Origin: a virus
DNA: 21,778 nucleotides
IMG/VR virus record: IMGVR_UViG_3300000364_000059
Coordinates: 1-21,778 of that record
Direction: 5' to 3' (one strand)
The notes beneath the pieces are model-generated. The model worked only from the letters and a program-made list of their open reading frames with translations. It searched no databases and was not told where the DNA came from. Shown one piece after another: positions 6,776-17,626 of the stretch. The position numbers and the translations under genes were made by a program. Every line of letters starts with the position of its first letter. Position 1 is the first letter of the stretch.

Positions 6776-7267
6776 TTACTTGGTCAAGTCCACGATGTCC
6801 GTTTTGTCGTACATGTTGGAATAATCCTGATTGTTCGCGAAATCCTCGGCTTCCGCTTTCGTCCGGAATAGGAACAATGCCGGCCAAATGGCCGAACCGT
6901 CCGGAGCTTCCGCAATGTCCGGAAGGTGGGCAAGGTCGGACTTGTCCCATTCTGCGGCGGGAATGCCCATAATGTGCCAAACGACCCACACCCAGCCGGT
7001 TTGGCCGATAAAGAACCACTCACGGCGTTCTTCCGAAGTGTCCGATTTGTCGACTTGCTGAAGAATGCTCAGGAATGTAGCCATCGACACCGATTCGGGC
7101 AGGTCATCCTTGATTTCCCGAATTCCCACATTGAGTTCATTTGTCCCAATGAACCCAAGCTTGTACGTTTGATACAACTCGTCCAGAGCTTCCCGAATGC
7201 CCTCAATGTCCCTTTCGTGCCGATTGGACCGCTCTTCCGCATAATCCCGTTCGTCGGTGTTGTTCAT
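6776..7267 (-). CDS. Hypothetical protein, helical N-terminus
   Basis: 163 residues from the ATG at 7267, with GAAAGGGACAAAA upstream; an in-frame extension to 7318 crosses the shared leader and is rejected. The N-terminus is a charged coiled-coil-like helix (ERDYAEERSNRHERDIEGIREALDEL has heptad-like spacing). The C-terminal half contains Trp-rich segments (EWFFIGQTGWVWVVWHIMG) and PALFLFRTKAEAEDFAN. No family is recognised. Confidence 0.65.
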   Translation of the reverse strand: MNNTDERDYAEERSNRHERDIEGIREALDELYQTYKLGFIGTNELNVGIREIKDDLPESVSMATFLSILQQVDKSDTSEERREWFFIGQTGWVWVVWHIMGIPAAEWDKSDLAHLPDIAEAPDGSAIWPALFLFRTKAEAEDFANNQDYSNMYDKTDIVDLTK

Positions 7268-7357
7268 TTTTGTCCCTTTCGTCGCGACAAAGGCGGGTAA
7301 CACCCAATAAAAGCGCACGTATCCGATTATGTCCTGCCATGTCCGGTTTTTAGCTAA

Positions 7358-7555
7358 TTAGCAGGTCTTGTCCATGTTGGGGTTGGGGTTGCCACGATGT
7401 ACCGAAACGAGGTACTCGCGGTATTCTTCCCGAATTTCCGGTTTCACATAGCTTGCGTGAATAAGGCGCTCAATGAGCCTTATCGTCAGAACGCCCAACC
7501 TTGCTGGGTATTGCCGCTTCCAGGCTGAAACGTCTGGATTGTCCCACTTAGCCAT
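7358..7555 (-). CDS. Small hypothetical protein
   Basis: 65 residues from the ATG at 7555, with ACAAAGGGAGCAAATC upstream. It is basic with two helices (LTIRLIERLIHASYV, EIREEYREYLVSVH) and an Asn/Pro tail ending in Cys. No family is recognised. Confidence 0.6.
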   Translation of the reverse strand: MAKWDNPDVSAWKRQYPARLGVLTIRLIERLIHASYVKPEIREEYREYLVSVHRGNPNPNMDKTC

Positions 7556-7661
7556 GATTTGCTCCCTTTGTCCGTTTTGGCTGGACATGGCAAGGCATAA
7601 TCGGATACGCCCGGAAATATGTGGACTTAACCTGCTTTGTCGGAGTTTGTCCGTTTTTACC

Positions 7662-7760
7662 CTAGTTGCGGTAGGAAAGTACCAGGATGTTGAAGAGTAT
7701 GACATTCAGGCAGATTGCCCAGAATGTCGGATGCGTGAGGATCTGCTCAGCTTTGCGCAT
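7662..7760 (-). CDS. Possible single-helix membrane peptide
   Basis: 32 residues. The ATG at 7760 overlaps the last codons of the gene at 7747-8100, an arrangement that permits translational coupling. After MRKAEQILTHPT comes a hydrophobic stretch (FWAICLNVILFNILVLSY) of membrane-spanning length. The ribosome site is weak (AGAAG). It fills an otherwise unexplained 190-bp gap. Confidence 0.45.
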   Translation of the reverse strand: MRKAEQILTHPTFWAICLNVILFNILVLSYRN

Positions 7761-8100
7761 TTTCGGGCTTCTTTGCGTTGGTACGCGGCTTACGCGCTGC
7801 TTTCGGAAGTTGGTCAGCATTCACCTGGAACGTGATGGTTTGCTCCGGAATGTCAATGATGTCCGAAGTGTCCGAAGTGTCCGAAGTGTCCGAAAGGTAC
7901 TCGAAGTTCGCCTTGTCCAGCTTGCGCAGCTTGTCCGATTTCACCCATTCGACCTCATTGGTGTCATCCCAGCTGATTCGCACCTTTCCAGCCAGTTCGC
8001 GCCCGTACGTCCCGGTACGGAAGTCATTGTCCGATTCGAACGTTTCGGCGTTTTTGCCGTTTAGCCACTGGATGACAGTGATTTCCGCAAACTTGTTCAT
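7747..8100 (-). CDS. Hypothetical protein with SDT repeats and basic tail
   Basis: 117 residues from the ATG at 8100, with AAAGGGGACAG upstream. The first half is mixed alpha/beta (FAEITVIQWLNGKNAETF, KVRISWDDTNEVEWVKSDKL). Then come three SDT units encoded by tandem copies of a 9-base unit (7859-7895), followed by a beta strand and a Lys/Arg/Pro tail. The repeat is the TGTCCG motif of this arm in tandem. No family is recognised. Confidence 0.65.
   Translation of the reverse strand: MNKFAEITVIQWLNGKNAETFESDNDFRTGTYGRELAGKVRISWDDTNEVEWVKSDKLRKLDKANFEYLSDTSDTSDTSDIIDIPEQTITFQVNADQLPKAARKPRTNAKKPENAQS
7859..7895 (+). repeat. Tandem TGTCCGAAG repeat, four units
   Basis: Four consecutive 9-bp units of the form TGTCCGAAG lie inside the gene at 7747-8100 and encode SDT triplets on the - strand. 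The last unit changes to TGTCCGAAA. It is an expanded version of the motif scattered throughout this arm. Confidence 0.9.
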
Positions 8101-8196
8101 TTCTGTCCCCTTTGTCTTGGACAAAGCAGGATAGGCCCACATATTTCCGTCTTCGCCATGGTATGTCCAGTTTTGTCTGGATTTGCCGCGCATGTC

Positions 8197-8457
8197 CTAT
8201 TTCACGTGGTTTGTGATTTTCGCGTAGTCGATCCCATAACGTCCAGGGATGTGCGGATCTGTCCACGTTGCCACCGAATTGTCCGGAAGGATGTAGCTCA
8301 GGGTGAATCCGCACGAATCGCAGCGATACTCCCATATGCCCGGAAACATCCGATCCTTACAAATGTGGCAGCTCATCCGGATACGGTCGGAATTGTCCGA
8401 TTCGACCGCAAAGGCCCACTTTAGCCAGTTTTCGTCGTTCACCCGGTTAAGACTCAT
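8197..8457 (-). CDS. Small zinc-ribbon protein
   Basis: 86 residues from the ATG at 8457, with CAAGGGGACAAA upstream. C30-x2-C33 and C46-x2-C49 (MSCHICKD, YRCDSCGF) form a zinc ribbon of usual spacing. The rest has helical N-terminal and beta-like C-terminal segments. Such ribbons mediate nucleic-acid or protein contacts; the partner is unknown. A perfect hairpin GATTTGCC/GGCAAATC lies just upstream in its leader. Confidence 0.65.
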   Translation of the reverse strand: MSLNRVNDENWLKWAFAVESDNSDRIRMSCHICKDRMFPGIWEYRCDSCGFTLSYILPDNSVATWTDPHIPGRYGIDYAKITNHVK

Positions 8458-8581
8458 TTTGTCCCCTTGTGTCCGATTTGCCGAGGCAAATCCAGACAAA
8501 GCTGGACACACCATAGCGGAATGTGCTATCGCATCACATGTCAGGACTTACCCAGATATCACCCGCTATGTCCGAAATGCC

Positions 8582-8857
8582 CTACTTAACCGTCAATTTC
8601 CCGGTAGGCCCGACATGTAGCTGCGCGTACCAAAGGCGCGCAGTATACGGATTCGGCCCAGTAACGATGTAAACGTCCGCTTTGTAAAGTTTGTCCGCAG
8701 TGGTGTCGATTGCGTCGTTATACGGCGAAACCGTCTTGATGTGCACCTTGTCCGGATGGTTGGCGATAAATCGCCTGAATCCCGCTTTGCTCCGAATGTC
8801 CGTTTTGCGGGAATCTTCCTCAATGTGCCGTGCGTACAGTTCAGCCCAGCTTGCCAT
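8582..8857 (-). CDS. Hypothetical protein
   Basis: 91 residues from the ATG at 8857, with AAGAGGGACAAACC upstream. The N-terminal helix (ASWAELYARHIEEDSRK) is followed by a compact alpha/beta part (FRRFIANHPDKVHI, DVYIVTGPNPYTARLWYAQLHVG). No family is recognised. The leader carries the palindromic TGTCCGGACA. Confidence 0.6.
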   Translation of the reverse strand: MASWAELYARHIEEDSRKTDIRSKAGFRRFIANHPDKVHIKTVSPYNDAIDTTADKLYKADVYIVTGPNPYTARLWYAQLHVGPTGKLTVK

Positions 8858-8961
8858 GGTTTGTCCCTCTTGTCCGTTTTGTCCGGACATAGCGGGTCAT
8901 ATCCAGGTAAGTCCCAAAAATCGGCTCATATCCTCACATGTCCGTTCGGTCCGGGTTTACC

Positions 8962-9207
8962 CTAAAGTACCTTGATGTCCAACATGTCCGAATTGACGGT
9001 AACTCTCCTCGAATCTACCGGAATGTCGCCTTCCTCATCAGTTGCGGTCAATTGCAGCATTTGTACAGGAAGTTCGCTTTCTTCCCACATGATGTCGTTT
9101 CGGTAGATGTACCACGTTTTGTCCGTTTCGCCCGGAACGGTGCATTCGACGTAAATGCCCGGCATGTACAGTTCTACCGTCATAAACCCTAGGTCCAGAT
9201 TTGCCAT
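8962..9207 (-). CDS. Hypothetical beta-rich protein
   Basis: 81 residues from the ATG at 9207, with TAGGAGACATACC upstream. It is strongly beta-patterned (FMTVELYMPGIYVECTV, TWYIYRNDIMW, PVQMLQLTATD). No family is recognised. It could be a small barrel-type binding protein. Confidence 0.6.
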   Translation of the reverse strand: MANLDLGFMTVELYMPGIYVECTVPGETDKTWYIYRNDIMWEESELPVQMLQLTATDEEGDIPVDSRRVTVNSDMLDIKVL

Positions 9208-9403
9208 GGTATGTCTCCTATGTCCGCTTTGTCCCGACTGGTTGGCTTTGGGCAATGAGTACCCTTTGCACCGGTCCGAGCGGACATGAGAGGATATGTC
9301 CGATTTGTCAGCACCCTGTGGAATTGTCAAGATACAACCGGAATATGGCGCTTTGTCGTAGGAAATCTGGAGATGTCGCCCATATCACGACATGTCCGAT
9401 TTG

Positions 9404-9490
9404 TCAGGACACCACAGCACTGAGGATGACAATCCACCCCAAAGCGACATTCATCACGACTTGTAGGATAATTGCCGACAAAAGCCTCAT
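9404..9490 (-). CDS. Possible 28-residue membrane peptide
   Basis: An ATG at 9490 opens a 28-residue frame that is almost wholly hydrophobic (LLSAIILQVVMNVALGW) and could span a membrane once. It starts 8 bp after the stop of the gene at 9498-9611. The upstream site is weak (GGGAC, 10 nt away). It may be a small membrane toxin or regulator, or chance. Confidence 0.4.
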   Translation of the reverse strand: MRLLSAIILQVVMNVALGWIVILSAVVS

Positions 9491-9497
9491 GTCAGCA

Positions 9498-9611
9498 CTA
9501 GTCCCACATGTACGTAATAGCCTGCAAAATCGTGATTTGTCCGTTTTGGACGTGGGTGCGCAGTCTGCGCACTTTGCCCCAAAAGCCGAGCTTGCGGTGT
9601 TTGCCTGACAT
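9498..9611 (-). CDS. Small basic peptide, first gene of the leftward arm
   Basis: 37 residues from the ATG at 9611. AAAGGAGG, the best ribosome site in this arm, lies 10 nt upstream. The N-terminus is strongly basic (SGKHRKLGFWGKVRRLRTH), then comes a helix NGQITILQAITYMWD. The basic-then-amphipathic pattern suits nucleic-acid or membrane binding. As the first gene after the leftward promoter region it may be expressed earliest. Confidence 0.55.
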   Translation of the reverse strand: MSGKHRKLGFWGKVRRLRTHVQNGQITILQAITYMWD

Positions 9612-9950
9612 GTCCGTTTTGCCTCCTTTGGCTGTTGACCTTGTTCTCTCTTCCTTCAAGGTCCACTTTACCAGGGGGCCTAGAGCCCGACAAAAGGGAC
9701 ATAGCGGCAGAAGTCAGCATTTAAAACCCCTTACATTGGGGTGCTAAGGCAGGACATAGCAGCATAAAAGGGACATGTCAGCATATTCTGGGCAGCTCTG
9801 GCTTGGCACAAGATCGGGCTATTGGTGCATGTCAGTACTTAAGCGACATAGGAGGCATAGGGTACAAGCCTGACATCTACACTAAACGACGACAAAGCGT
9901 AAAAAAGCGACATATCCCCTATGTCCGAAAAGGGGGACATGGTAGGAAAA

Positions 9951-13083: not shown

Positions 13084-13329
13084 ATGAAAACCGCCAAGAA
13101 ACTCATGTATTTTAATCTATCGTGTACCGTCGTGTGGTTGTTATTGGGAATTCCGTCGCTCATCTGGTGGAAAGATTCTATTCTCTGGGTAATCATAATC
13201 TCGCTTTGGGCCAACATTGTTGGTCATTTCAGTGCGTACATTTCCTCACGTGGCGAAGTGGCGCAAACTGAAGGACATAATCTCACCAAAGCTGACAAAG
13301 AGTGGATGAATAGGAGAACCAATGAGTAA
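13084..13329 (+). CDS. Two-helix small membrane protein
   Basis: 81 residues from the ATG at 13084. Two hydrophobic segments lie at about 9-28 (NLSCTVVWLLLGIPSLIW) and 32-50 (SILWVIIISLWANIVGHFS), with a short WWKD loop. The C-terminus is polar and overlaps the terminase start by 8 bp. Similar small proteins occur beside coiled-coil membrane proteins in actinophages. A holin role is possible but unsupported. Confidence 0.6.
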   Translation: MKTAKKLMYFNLSCTVVWLLLGIPSLIWWKDSILWVIIISLWANIVGHFSAYISSRGEVAQTEGHNLTKADKEWMNRRTNE

Positions 13330-15781
13330 GTTGGAAAAGTTGTACTCGATTGATAAGTGGCGCTATTTTGACCTCATTGATTACCAACCACACCCAAAGC
13401 AACGACTGTTTCACAAATCTGAAGCAAGGTTCAAAATTGCCATTTGTGGGCGTCGGTTCGGGAAAGCCATAGATATTCATCAATTGATTCCAACCCCACA
13501 GGGCATGCGGAGGATGGCAGAGCTGCAAGTTGGTGACCAAGTATTTGACGAGCTTGGATATCCCATCAATATTGTCGCAGTTAGTGAAATTATGGAGCTA
13601 CCGGCGTATGAAGTAATATTTGACGATAAAACCAGTGTTATTACGCATGGAGAGCATGAATGGTTAACTTATGACAAAAAGGCTCGCAAAACCCGTGAAT
13701 CCTGGTTTGCTAGTCATCCGTCTGACCAACGTCGTAATTTGATTTCACCGGCCATTCGAACGACTCGCGAAATTTCCCAAACGCTTATCATCAATGGTGA
13801 GACAAACCATGCTGTTCAACTCACCGAACCCGTTGATTTTCCAAAACAAGACTTGCCAATTGATCCATACTTACTTGGCGTGTGGTTGGGTGATGGCTCA
13901 AGTAATTCTGGATATCTTTGTATTTCCAACCAAGATGAATGGATTGTTCAGAAACTTACAGATCGCGGACATAAACTTATTGTCAAGCGAATTGAGAATG
14001 GTTGTAAGTCTTGGCAAGTAATTGGATTTAGCCAAATACTCAATAAATGTAATCTTATCAACAACAAACACGTACCAGTGCAATATTTGTACGGTTCAAT
14101 TGAACAACGTCAAGAACTGCTCTTTGGTCTTATGGACACCGATGGAACCGTTTCCCCCAACCACGTAGATTTTGACAACACTAACAAAAATCTTGCGGAC
14201 GCCGTCAATTACCTTGTATGCTCACTTGGTGGAAAAGTTACTAGATCACAGCGAATAGGAAAATTGTACGGCGTCGACAAGAAAATGTGTTATCGAGTGC
14301 ACACCGGCGGGCTTGTTGATGTATTTAGCCTACCTCGTAAGCTAGCCGCTCAGCAACAACTTCCAAAACGGCAGCACTATTACCGGTTTATCCGAGAAGT
14401 TCAATCTGTCGGCTTTCGTCAGGTCAAATGTATCGAGGTAGCCACACCTTCACACTTGTATTTGGTTGGCGCATCTTTCATTCCAACCCACAACTCGCAA
14501 ATGGCAGCTAAAGAGTTCGAACCGATGCTGCTGATTCCGAACCGACGTTATTGGATTGTTGGTCCAACTTATGATCTTGGTGAAAAGGAGTTCCGGATTA
14601 TCTGGAACGACATGATGATTAAGCTCGGGTTGGCCAAAGAACGGAACATTAAACGGTCCTATGCCAAGAAGCAAGGCGATTTAAGCATTGAGTTTCCCTG
14701 GAACACTCGGATCGAAGTTCGGTCAGCCGACCGGCCGGAGAACCTGGTTGGTGAAGGGCTGCATGGGGTGATTATGTCTGAGGCAGCCAAACACACCGAA
14801 GACACCTGGGACAGATTTATTCGGCCGGCGCTGACCGACTTTCGTGGTACGGCAGTTTTTCCCACTACCCCAGAAGGCCAGAACTGGCTATATCAGATGT
14901 GGAAAATGGGCCGCGACCCGAACGAGCCGGATTTTGAATCTTGGCAATTTCCGTCTTGGGACAACCCACATGTCTATCCCGGTGGGATCAATGACCCTGA
15001 GCTAATTTTGACCAAGCGCACCACCCCAGAAGAAAGCTTCCTGCAAGAGTATGCCGCCGACTTTACCTCGTTCTCGGGTAAGATCTATCAAGAATGGGAC
15101 GAGGCGGTGCACGTCCAGGCGGTGCCGTTCCTGCCGCAATTGCCCAATTACATTGCTTTCGACTGGGGTTTTGCGGCACCGATGGCGGCCATCGAGTTCC
15201 AGATCGATGCGTTTCAGCGGGTTCGGGTTTGGCGGGAACACTATAAGAGTCGGATTCGGCTCCGGGATTTCCTCTACGAACTGAAGAGCCGAGTCCAGCC
15301 ACCCGGCTACCACTTGGACTTGACCTTTGGGGATGCCGCTGACCCGGAAGCCGTGATTACCGTTTCTGAAGATTTTGCTCCCTGCTTTGCCGATCCTCGG
15401 TCGAAACAAGGTACTGGCGGCGGCACGCTGGAGTCCGGCAAGCGGGAAGGTGTCGAGTTGGTGAAGGGTTGCCTGAAGCAGCAAGAAGTCGACGTCGATG
15501 AATCTGGTGCACCGATTGAGCAACCTTGGCTTATCGTCGACCATTCTTGCGTAAACCTGATTCGCGAATTCAACAACTACCGAATTGCCGACGCCGTTGG
15601 CGGTCGAGACCCCCTAGAGAAGACGTTCCGGCGCGACGATCACGCCCTTGATGCGCTTCGATACGGATTAATGCACGTATTGAAGTTAGGGGCAACCATG
15701 AAACTTTCCGATGTGATGGACATTGGTCCATCTGGTGGTTCAGATGCTGGGTTCTTCGTTTCTGGTCGTAATTTTGTTTAG
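13322..15781 (+). CDS. terL: Terminase large subunit interrupted by an intein
   Basis: The 819-residue precursor would splice to 476 residues, normal for TerL. It packages DNA as the motor ATPase and cuts concatemers. Extein 1 ends in the P-loop GRRFGK (43-48). After the intein, extein 2 resumes with S392. The Walker B-like strand VIMSEAA (483-489) keeps the catalytic Glu but has Ser where Asp is usual. FPTTPEG (513-519) is a coupling motif. The RNase H-fold nuclease has IAFDWGF (D614), GDAADPEA (D671/D674) and RRDDHALDALRYGL (D772/D773, D777). The start at 13322 overlaps the preceding gene. Without splicing the P-loop is broken, so splicing is probably essential. Confidence 0.95.
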   Translation: MSKLEKLYSIDKWRYFDLIDYQPHPKQRLFHKSEARFKIAICGRRFGKAIDIHQLIPTPQGMRRMAELQVGDQVFDELGYPINIVAVSEIMELPAYEVIFDDKTSVITHGEHEWLTYDKKARKTRESWFASHPSDQRRNLISPAIRTTREISQTLIINGETNHAVQLTEPVDFPKQDLPIDPYLLGVWLGDGSSNSGYLCISNQDEWIVQKLTDRGHKLIVKRIENGCKSWQVIGFSQILNKCNLINNKHVPVQYLYGSIEQRQELLFGLMDTDGTVSPNHVDFDNTNKNLADAVNYLVCSLGGKVTRSQRIGKLYGVDKKMCYRVHTGGLVDVFSLPRKLAAQQQLPKRQHYYRFIREVQSVGFRQVKCIEVATPSHLYLVGASFIPTHNSQMAAKEFEPMLLIPNRRYWIVGPTYDLGEKEFRIIWNDMMIKLGLAKERNIKRSYAKKQGDLSIEFPWNTRIEVRSADRPENLVGEGLHGVIMSEAAKHTEDTWDRFIRPALTDFRGTAVFPTTPEGQNWLYQMWKMGRDPNEPDFESWQFPSWDNPHVYPGGINDPELILTKRTTPEESFLQEYAADFTSFSGKIYQEWDEAVHVQAVPFLPQLPNYIAFDWGFAAPMAAIEFQIDAFQRVRVWREHYKSRIRLRDFLYELKSRVQPPGYHLDLTFGDAADPEAVITVSEDFAPCFADPRSKQGTGGGTLESGKREGVELVKGCLKQQEVDVDESGAPIEQPWLIVDHSCVNLIREFNNYRIADAVGGRDPLEKTFRRDDHALDALRYGLMHVLKLGATMKLSDVMDIGPSGGSDAGFFVSGRNFV
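13466..14494 (+). mobile_element. Class 3 intein with LAGLIDADG endonuclease, in Walker A of TerL
   Basis: Codons 49-391 (343 residues). It starts with Ala49 instead of Cys/Ser and ends PTHN before Ser392. The class 3 WCT set is visible: Trp114 in HGEHEWLT, Cys370 in VKCIEV, Thr389 in PTHN. Class 3 inteins use that internal Cys as first nucleophile. Two LAGLIDADG-type motifs, LLGVWLGDGS (184-193) and LLFGLMDTDG (266-275), keep Asp191 and Asp274, so the homing endonuclease looks intact. The insertion point is between Lys48 and Ser392 of the P-loop. The intein reads visibly more AT-rich than the exteins, consistent with transfer. Confidence 0.92.
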
Positions 15782-15927: not shown

Positions 15928-16065
15928 ATGTCTCACCGGAAGTCCAAAGTCGCCGTCGCGGCCACCGTCTGTGGAGCCGTTGGCGCGCTGCTGGCCTTAT
16001 TGATAATTGTCAATAAGCGGAAACCAGCAAAGCACCAACGGGAGGTGAAGAATGCCAACAGTTGA
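15928..16065 (+). CDS. Basic single-helix membrane peptide
   Basis: 45 residues from the ATG at 15928, overlapping the portal start by 14 bp. A basic MSHRKSKV head precedes a hydrophobic segment (AVAATVCGAVGALLALLIIV) and a basic NKRKPAKHQR tail. GAGAGG lies upstream. With the preceding acidic-tailed peptide it forms a pair of opposite-charge one-helix proteins. Function unknown. Confidence 0.5.
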   Translation: MSHRKSKVAVAATVCGAVGALLALLIIVNKRKPAKHQREVKNANS

Positions 16066-17626
16066 GACTGACGAAGGCAAAATCCAGGATTTGGCGGATT
16101 ATGCTAGAGAAAAGCAGATATCGTTCGCCGAGGCAATGGAGAAATTTGATGTAGTATCTGCAAATCATGATCCTGTCCATGGTTCCTATGTGATCATGGT
16201 AGACAAATCCAAAAATCTTGCACCTGGCTTCGCCACAGCGGAGCTAGGATATGCGTCGCCTAGTCCTTTCACGGCCTGGATGCGGGAGGAAAGGGTCCCA
16301 GAGCTTCGGGACAAGTTGGGCTTGCGGGTCTTTTATGACATGAAACGGGCGGACGGCACCGTCCGGGGTGCCTTGCGACTGCTCAAAACGCCCATCCAGG
16401 CTGCTCGATGGTTCATTGAGCCAGCTACTGATTCCACCATAGACAAGACCATTGCCAAATTCGTCGAGAAGAACCTGTTTGAGGAATTATCCCAACCTTG
16501 GTCGCGATTCATCGAAGACGCCTTACTCATGTGTGACTTCGGGTACATGGCATTTGAGAAGGTTTGGGACTACAACAAAGAGGGCAAACTCATCATTTCC
16601 AAGTTGGCTCCTCGGCACCCGCTGGATATTCAGGAATGGCTTTGGGACGACAACGGTGGGCCAAATGCCTTTGTGATGGAACCAATTGGGCTCGCGTTTG
16701 ACTATAATCAGAACTTCCGGTTACCCAGCAATAACACCTCAGCCAATACCTACAGCATTGGCATTGACCCCAAGGTGGTCATTCCGATCGAGAAGGCCGT
16801 CATTTTCACCTTGGAACAAGAGGCCGGCGACCTACGTGGTATTTCCATTCTACGGTCAGCCTACAAGCATTACTTTTACAAGGACACGCTGTACAAAATC
16901 GATGCCATTCAAAAGGAACGGCATGGGATTGGCGTGCCGATTATCAAGATGCCGATGGGCTTTTCCAAGGCGGATCGCGACTTGGCGGACAACCTCGGTC
17001 GCAACTTGCGGACCAACGAGCGTGCCCATATCACCATTCCGATGAACTGGGAAGTCGGATTCGCCAAGCTCGAAGGCCAGCCAGTGGATTGTTTGCGGTC
17101 TATTGAGCACCACGACATGAAGATCAAGTCCAACATTCTGGCACCATTCATGGATGAGGCCAACGTCAATCCGGATTCACTCGACGTATATTACAAAGCC
17201 ACCCGGTATATTGCCAACACGTTGTGCGATACGGTGAACAAATATCTTATTCCGCAACTTGTTGGGATGAACTTCGCCCGGGGCAACAATCCACTGCTTC
17301 GGGTTCGGCGAATTGGCGAAGAGGAAGCGCTCCGGACCTTGTCGTTTGCGTTCCGGAACTTCGTGGGTGCTGGTGCCATTCGACCGGATGACCCGCTGGA
17401 GAAATTCCTTCGCTCTGAACTTGATTTGCCGCCAGCCGACCCGGATACCGCCCGAATGCCAATTCAAAACCAAGGACAACCTGGTCAAGAATCCGCTCAG
17501 CCTGGGTCCGGCCCGAATCCGCCGACCCCACCTAGTGCCCCAAAAGTTGGTTTGCCTCGGCAAGCCGCCAGCCCGCCAGTACACACTGGAAAAAATAACA
17601 CTGGTAACGATACGAGTGGAGGATAA
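16052..17626 (+). CDS. Portal protein, DUF935-like (Mu gp29 type)
   Basis: 524 residues; GGGAGGT lies before the ATG at 16052. The portal forms the dodecameric ring for DNA entry and head-tail joining. Supporting blocks include MKRADGTVRGALRLLKTPIQAARWFIEPA, FIEDALLMCDFGYMAFEKVWDYN, DLRGISILRSAYKHYFYKDTLYKI and PFMDEANVNPDSLDVYYKATRYIANTL, in the order expected of DUF935 portals; the length is also usual. The C-terminal 70 residues are a Pro/Gln/Gly-rich tail. The N-terminal segment AREKQISFAEAME (18-30) resembles a motif at the C-terminus of the scaffold. Position next to terminase is standard. Confidence 0.85.
   Translation: MPTVETDEGKIQDLADYAREKQISFAEAMEKFDVVSANHDPVHGSYVIMVDKSKNLAPGFATAELGYASPSPFTAWMREERVPELRDKLGLRVFYDMKRADGTVRGALRLLKTPIQAARWFIEPATDSTIDKTIAKFVEKNLFEELSQPWSRFIEDALLMCDFGYMAFEKVWDYNKEGKLIISKLAPRHPLDIQEWLWDDNGGPNAFVMEPIGLAFDYNQNFRLPSNNTSANTYSIGIDPKVVIPIEKAVIFTLEQEAGDLRGISILRSAYKHYFYKDTLYKIDAIQKERHGIGVPIIKMPMGFSKADRDLADNLGRNLRTNERAHITIPMNWEVGFAKLEGQPVDCLRSIEHHDMKIKSNILAPFMDEANVNPDSLDVYYKATRYIANTLCDTVNKYLIPQLVGMNFARGNNPLLRVRRIGEEEALRTLSFAFRNFVGAGAIRPDDPLEKFLRSELDLPPADPDTARMPIQNQGQPGQESAQPGSGPNPPTPPSAPKVGLPRQAASPPVHTGKNNTGNDTSGG

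Follow-up and report, generated by a model that had tools for sequence, protein, structure and literature searches.

A mobile class 3 intein with a LAGLIDADG homing endonuclease appears to split the large terminase subunit (TerL) of a tailed phage between the Lys and Ser of its Walker A motif, a reading to which we give a probability of about 95% on the basis of sequence comparisons and a predicted structure, and against which no observation speaks. The window analyzed here is the full 21,778-base IMG/VR virus record; no further inteins were found in it. The features that we discuss are listed below, all on the plus strand, with intein residues numbered from the first residue of the intein.

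13322..15781, plus strand: TerL precursor (from the open reading frame list; PHROGs phrog_2, E=6.6e-35; TerL relatives up to 83% identical)
13322..13465, plus strand: N-extein, 48 aa, ending in GRRFGK, the first part of Walker A
13466..14494, plus strand: predicted class 3 intein with homing endonuclease domain, 343 aa, precursor residues 49-391
13466..13468, plus strand: intein residue 1, Ala, in place of a Cys/Ser nucleophile
13655..13663, plus strand: block B His64-Glu65-Trp66 (HxW, with the Trp of the WCT triad); among relatives, His64 in 96/96 and Trp66 in 95/96
13871..13903, plus strand: first LAGLIDADG motif (block C, LLGVWLGDGSS), predicted catalytic Asp143
14120..14152, plus strand: second LAGLIDADG motif (block E, LFGLMDTDGTV), predicted catalytic Asp226
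14429..14431, plus strand: block F Cys322, proposed splicing nucleophile; Cys in 96/96 relatives
14486..14494, plus strand: block G Thr341-His342-Asn343 (WCT-triad Thr, then the penultimate His and the predicted cyclizing Asn)
14495..15781, plus strand: C-extein, 428 aa, starting with Ser+1, the Walker A Ser

The insertion interrupts the Walker A motif of TerL

The frame at 13322-15781 encodes an 819-residue precursor in which N-extein, intein and C-extein are all read in a single open frame. PHROGs terminase large subunit matches span both the N- and C-exteins, and a Pfam Terminase_3C match was weak and under the cut-off (E=0.003). Because genes for a portal (Portal_Mu, P23-45-like), a Mu-like head protease and a major head protein lie 3' of it, the setting is a tailed-phage head-gene cluster. 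The PHROGs matches and these head genes together place the protein in the TerL family, which is characterized by a Walker A ATPase, a C-terminal RNase H-like nuclease and a position in such a cluster. The portal gene (16052-17626) strongly matches models of both the Mu portal (E=9e-33) and the Thermus phage P23-45 portal (E=2e-27). Elsewhere in the window, the minus strand at 7250-9620 holds a series of small open reading frames with a similar leader recurring near their starts (repeat families D1, D4 and D6), suggesting repeated ribosome-binding or regulatory leaders.

The Lys48 codon is at 13463, followed by Ala49 (Ala1 of the intein) at 13466; the intein reads AIDIHQLIPTP...FIPTHN and gives way to Ser392 at 14495. 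To place these boundaries, we fetched TerL relatives with the C-extein alone, which made the sampling independent of intein presence. At least 65 relatives from viral contigs span the P-loop, and in these the motif GRR[FYM]GK is unbroken and runs on into Ser (62) or Thr (3); an intein at the P-loop was found in 0/65 of these sampled close relatives. The nearest intein-free relative, L002, shares 83% identity over the C-extein and 89% over 46 residues of the N-extein, and in DNA alignments to empty alleles the two flanks join at the lysine codon. Since the empty alleles read through, the junctions Lys48-Ala49 and Asn391-Ser392 are fixed without recourse to intein motifs. A preliminary description of this DNA had placed the insertion between Lys48 and Ser392 of the terminase Walker A motif, ending in a PTHN-Ser junction, with coordinates that give the intein 343 residues and with 476 residues for the joined exteins; the empty alleles bear out the site and the junction (His390-Asn391, then Ser392), and both sizes are exact. 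The search for intein-free alleles in metagenomes that it had called for is likewise answered by these 65 or more sequences. A chance match is excluded by full-length tblastn alignment to phage inteins (E of about 1e-58), with the 65 empty alleles setting the exact insertion point.

Residues predicted to carry out class 3 splicing

The intein aligns with class 3 inteins over its full length. Class 3 DnaB inteins were the top phmmer matches in the PDB (MchDnaB1, 6rix, E=9e-15; MsmDnaBi1, 6bs8, E=2e-13), and their chemistry has been described (PMC7664689, PMC6195587). NCBIfam gave only weak matches to intein-containing proteins. The MsmDnaBi1 triad consists of Trp67, Cys118 and Thr137, with Asn139 (PMC6195587), and the phmmer alignment brings Trp66, Cys322, Thr341 and Asn343 of the present intein onto these residues; the spacing from Cys322 to the final Asn, 21 residues, equals that from Cys118 in MsmDnaBi1. 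Across a 19-member phage intein alignment, His64, Cys322, Thr341, His342 and Asn343 are invariant and Trp66 nearly so, and in a 97-member alignment the Cys, Thr, His and Asn are found in 96/96 relatives and the Trp in 95/96. The triad residues proposed earlier (Trp114, Cys370 and Thr389 of the precursor, equivalent to Trp66, Cys322 and Thr341 of the intein) and the Ala at position 1 were thus correctly placed: the WCT residues fall in aligned columns, and the predicted nucleophile stays at Cys370. With Ala1 in place of Cys or Ser, an aligned WCT triad, block B His64, penultimate His342, terminal Asn343 and Ser+1, the intein agrees with class 3 in every defining feature that can be read from sequence.

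As position 1 is Ala, the first step of class 1 splicing is unavailable. Instead, Cys322, aided by His64 and Thr341, would attack the Lys48-Ala1 peptide bond; the N-extein would then move onto Ser+1, Asn343 would cyclize, and the exteins would be joined into a 476-residue terminase with its P-loop restored. It would follow from the position of the insertion that the packaging ATPase depends on splicing. We consider it very improbable that the element is instead an intein of class 1 or class 2, or an insertion domain that does not splice. Such readings could draw on a weak phmmer match to gp41-1 related inteins and on the class 1 intein PI-SceI being the best full-length fold match, but the latter stems from a common intein-plus-endonuclease architecture. 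Ala1 rules out the chemistry of class 1, the WCT triad and its block F Cys speak against class 2, and both the precise empty alleles and the Asn-Ser junction count against a retained domain; all three readings were rejected on these residues and alleles.

The intein departs from the class 3 consensus at His61, where Asp is most common, and at Ala326 and Lys55, where Asp and Gly, respectively, are usual. Block B at 13646-13657 (His61-Gly-Glu-His64) therefore reads HxxH, while most class 3 inteins have DxxH; within the 96-member sample, His61 recurs in only three others (L180, Porphyromonas phage 005b and Bacteroides phage BK649P1). His61 and Ala326 lie near the active site, and these departures, together with a long branch in the intein tree, might indicate an element in decay, with endonuclease or splicing partly impaired and heading for loss. 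This seems unlikely to us, as the frame is fully open, the catalytic residues of the splicing blocks and both endonuclease Asp residues are kept, and the structure model is confident throughout; moreover, packaging should be lost if an intein in the P-loop could not splice. Mild impairment from the departures at His61, Ala326 and Lys55 is nevertheless conceivable from the sequence.

Endonuclease domain and predicted structure

The 343-residue length of the intein is explained by a domain that lies between blocks B and F and holds the two LAGLIDADG motifs. The block D lysine, K201, is present, and both motifs and K201 vary little or not at all among relatives. Two Pfam families matched above their cut-offs (LAGLIDADG_3, 31.5 bits against 22.5; Hom_end, 25.5 against 21.1), and each motif carries a catalytic acidic residue, as in LAGLIDADG endonucleases generally. 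An intact two-motif endonuclease with both catalytic Asp residues had been proposed beforehand, and Asp143, Asp226 and the Pfam matches agree with this.

We also built an AlphaFold2 model of the intein with 39 relatives from viral contigs (mean pLDDT 95.5, pTM 0.92). Foldseek matched PI-SceI over the whole model (E=2.7e-20, query TM 0.76) and, over the splicing part, the class 3 DnaB inteins 6bs8, 6rix and 6riy (target TM 0.80-0.86), and the model thus has the horseshoe beta fold of HINT splicing domains. I-DmoI, a free-standing LAGLIDADG endonuclease, was matched as well. The predicted structure is that of a PI-SceI-like intein-endonuclease. The earlier class 3 identification is accordingly upheld by alignment, empty alleles and structure model together.

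PI-SceI (the VMA intein) shares the architecture of an intein with an inserted two-motif LAGLIDADG endonuclease, but it is larger, splices by the class 1 route with Cys1 and is 16% identical to the present intein. MsmDnaBi1 (6bs8) and MchDnaB1 (6rix) have in common with it the splicing-domain sequence and fold, the P-loop site and the 21-residue distance from the block F Cys to the final Asn; they differ in having a helicase host and in being without an endonuclease domain.

Related inteins at the TerL P-loop

Class 3 inteins at the TerL P-loop are common and already described, and the present intein is one more example. Kelley et al. (2016, PMC5050341) described TerL P-loop inteins and class 3 members among TerL inteins, and reported that five TerL inteins splice and two cleave DNA. 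The mycobacteriophage inteins TerL1-a to -e (PMC5050341) likewise lie in the TerL ATPase domain, TerL1-a at the classic Lys-Thr P-loop site; they belong to mycobacteriophage TerL1 families and their activity was shown by experiment, whereas the present intein is known from sequence. The same TerL Lys-Ser/Thr site is occupied in Mycobacterium phage Sassay, Stenotrophomonas phage SOVA965, Escherichia phage Makalu_002, Klebsiella phage RaK2, Methanosarcina virus MetMV and Porphyromonas phage 005b, whose inteins also share WCT, THN and LAGLIDADG. Compared with these and the IMG/VR TerL inteins, to which it is at most about 40% identical, the present one is distinguished by a GRRFGK-type host TerL beside a Mu/P23-45-like portal and by His61 in block B.

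More broadly, tblastn with the intein matched 751 phage records, in 522 of which the match extended over at least 80% of the intein, and an alignment-based scan of IMG/VR gave at least 571 relatives. From the best 80 of these 571 or more we took 78 well-delimited inteins, a sample biased toward endonuclease-bearing inteins because the search patterns were derived from LAGLIDADG motifs. Within this sample, HxW, the block F Cys and THN are present in 78/78, a P-loop-like GK before the intein with Ser/Thr at +1 in 50/78, and the first residue is Ala in 42/78 and Cys in 1/78. A single-sequence pattern search of IMG/VR for close relatives of the intein gave one distant match, at 29%, to a RecA P-loop intein on viral contig L082. 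That element (L082:2547-3599) is of class 3 type (A1, HLW, block F Cys and THN before Thr), has a LAGLIDADG domain and sits in the RecA P-loop after GPESSGK and before Thr.

Origin of the intein

Identity between the intein and any relative found is at most 41%, and in a quick maximum-likelihood tree it forms a long branch of 1.59 changes per site. Its GC3 is 0.385, compared with 0.592 for the C-extein and 0.594 for the portal gene. This contrast fits separate ancestry but is only suggestive, as GC is also low in the N-extein (0.424). Descent of the intein together with its own TerL type found no support: L142, whose host is the other GRRFGK-type TerL, is placed elsewhere in the tree, although this tree is a quick one in which the present intein is a long branch. 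Intein-free close relatives, tree placement and GC3 fit horizontal gain by homing; the alternative is that the intein has been lost repeatedly from TerL relatives. To spread, the intein would cleave the P-loop sequence of terL alleles that lack it, after which recombination would copy it in; L002, L003 and L004, all intein-free, are candidate cleavage substrates. The P-loop location could then be explained by a conserved homing target and the cost of imprecise loss, with no need for a regulatory role.

Splicing as a possible control point

The preliminary description had suggested a possible link between packaging and conditions that affect splicing. On such a reading, the intein would be a conditional switch through which splicing, and with it the packaging ATPase, responds to redox state or metal ions. 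There is precedent in MsmDnaBi1 of M. smegmatis, a P-loop class 3 intein inhibited by H2O2 via a Cys118-Cys48 disulfide (PMC6195587), and the present intein uses a block F Cys equivalent to Cys118. The position of the disulfide partner, however, where relatives most often have Cys (52/96), is occupied by Ala47, and the remaining five cysteines of the intein are all in the endonuclease region; the intein thus lacks the second Cys that defines MsmDnaBi1-type redox sensing. Its absence from the close TerL relatives gives no sign of conserved regulatory use, and TerL inteins that have been tested spliced readily upon expression (PMC5050341). We therefore regard a redox- or metal-responsive switch as improbable. 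The block F Cys could still undergo direct oxidation or bind metal, but that the intein is kept as a switch delaying active packaging ATPase, by chemistry other than a Cys118-Cys48 disulfide, strikes us as slightly less probable again. The argument for conditional packaging is thus one of precedent; Ala47 replaces the trap cysteine here, and the apparently intact endonuclease is sufficient to account for maintenance of the intein through homing.

The present intein leaves knowledge of inteins and of packaging unchanged. What it adds is a divergent class 3 intein in a TerL family whose sampled close relatives carry none, and with it a clean intein-plus/intein-minus pair usable for homing assays. 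It supports the view that class 3 inteins invade the TerL P-loop repeatedly.
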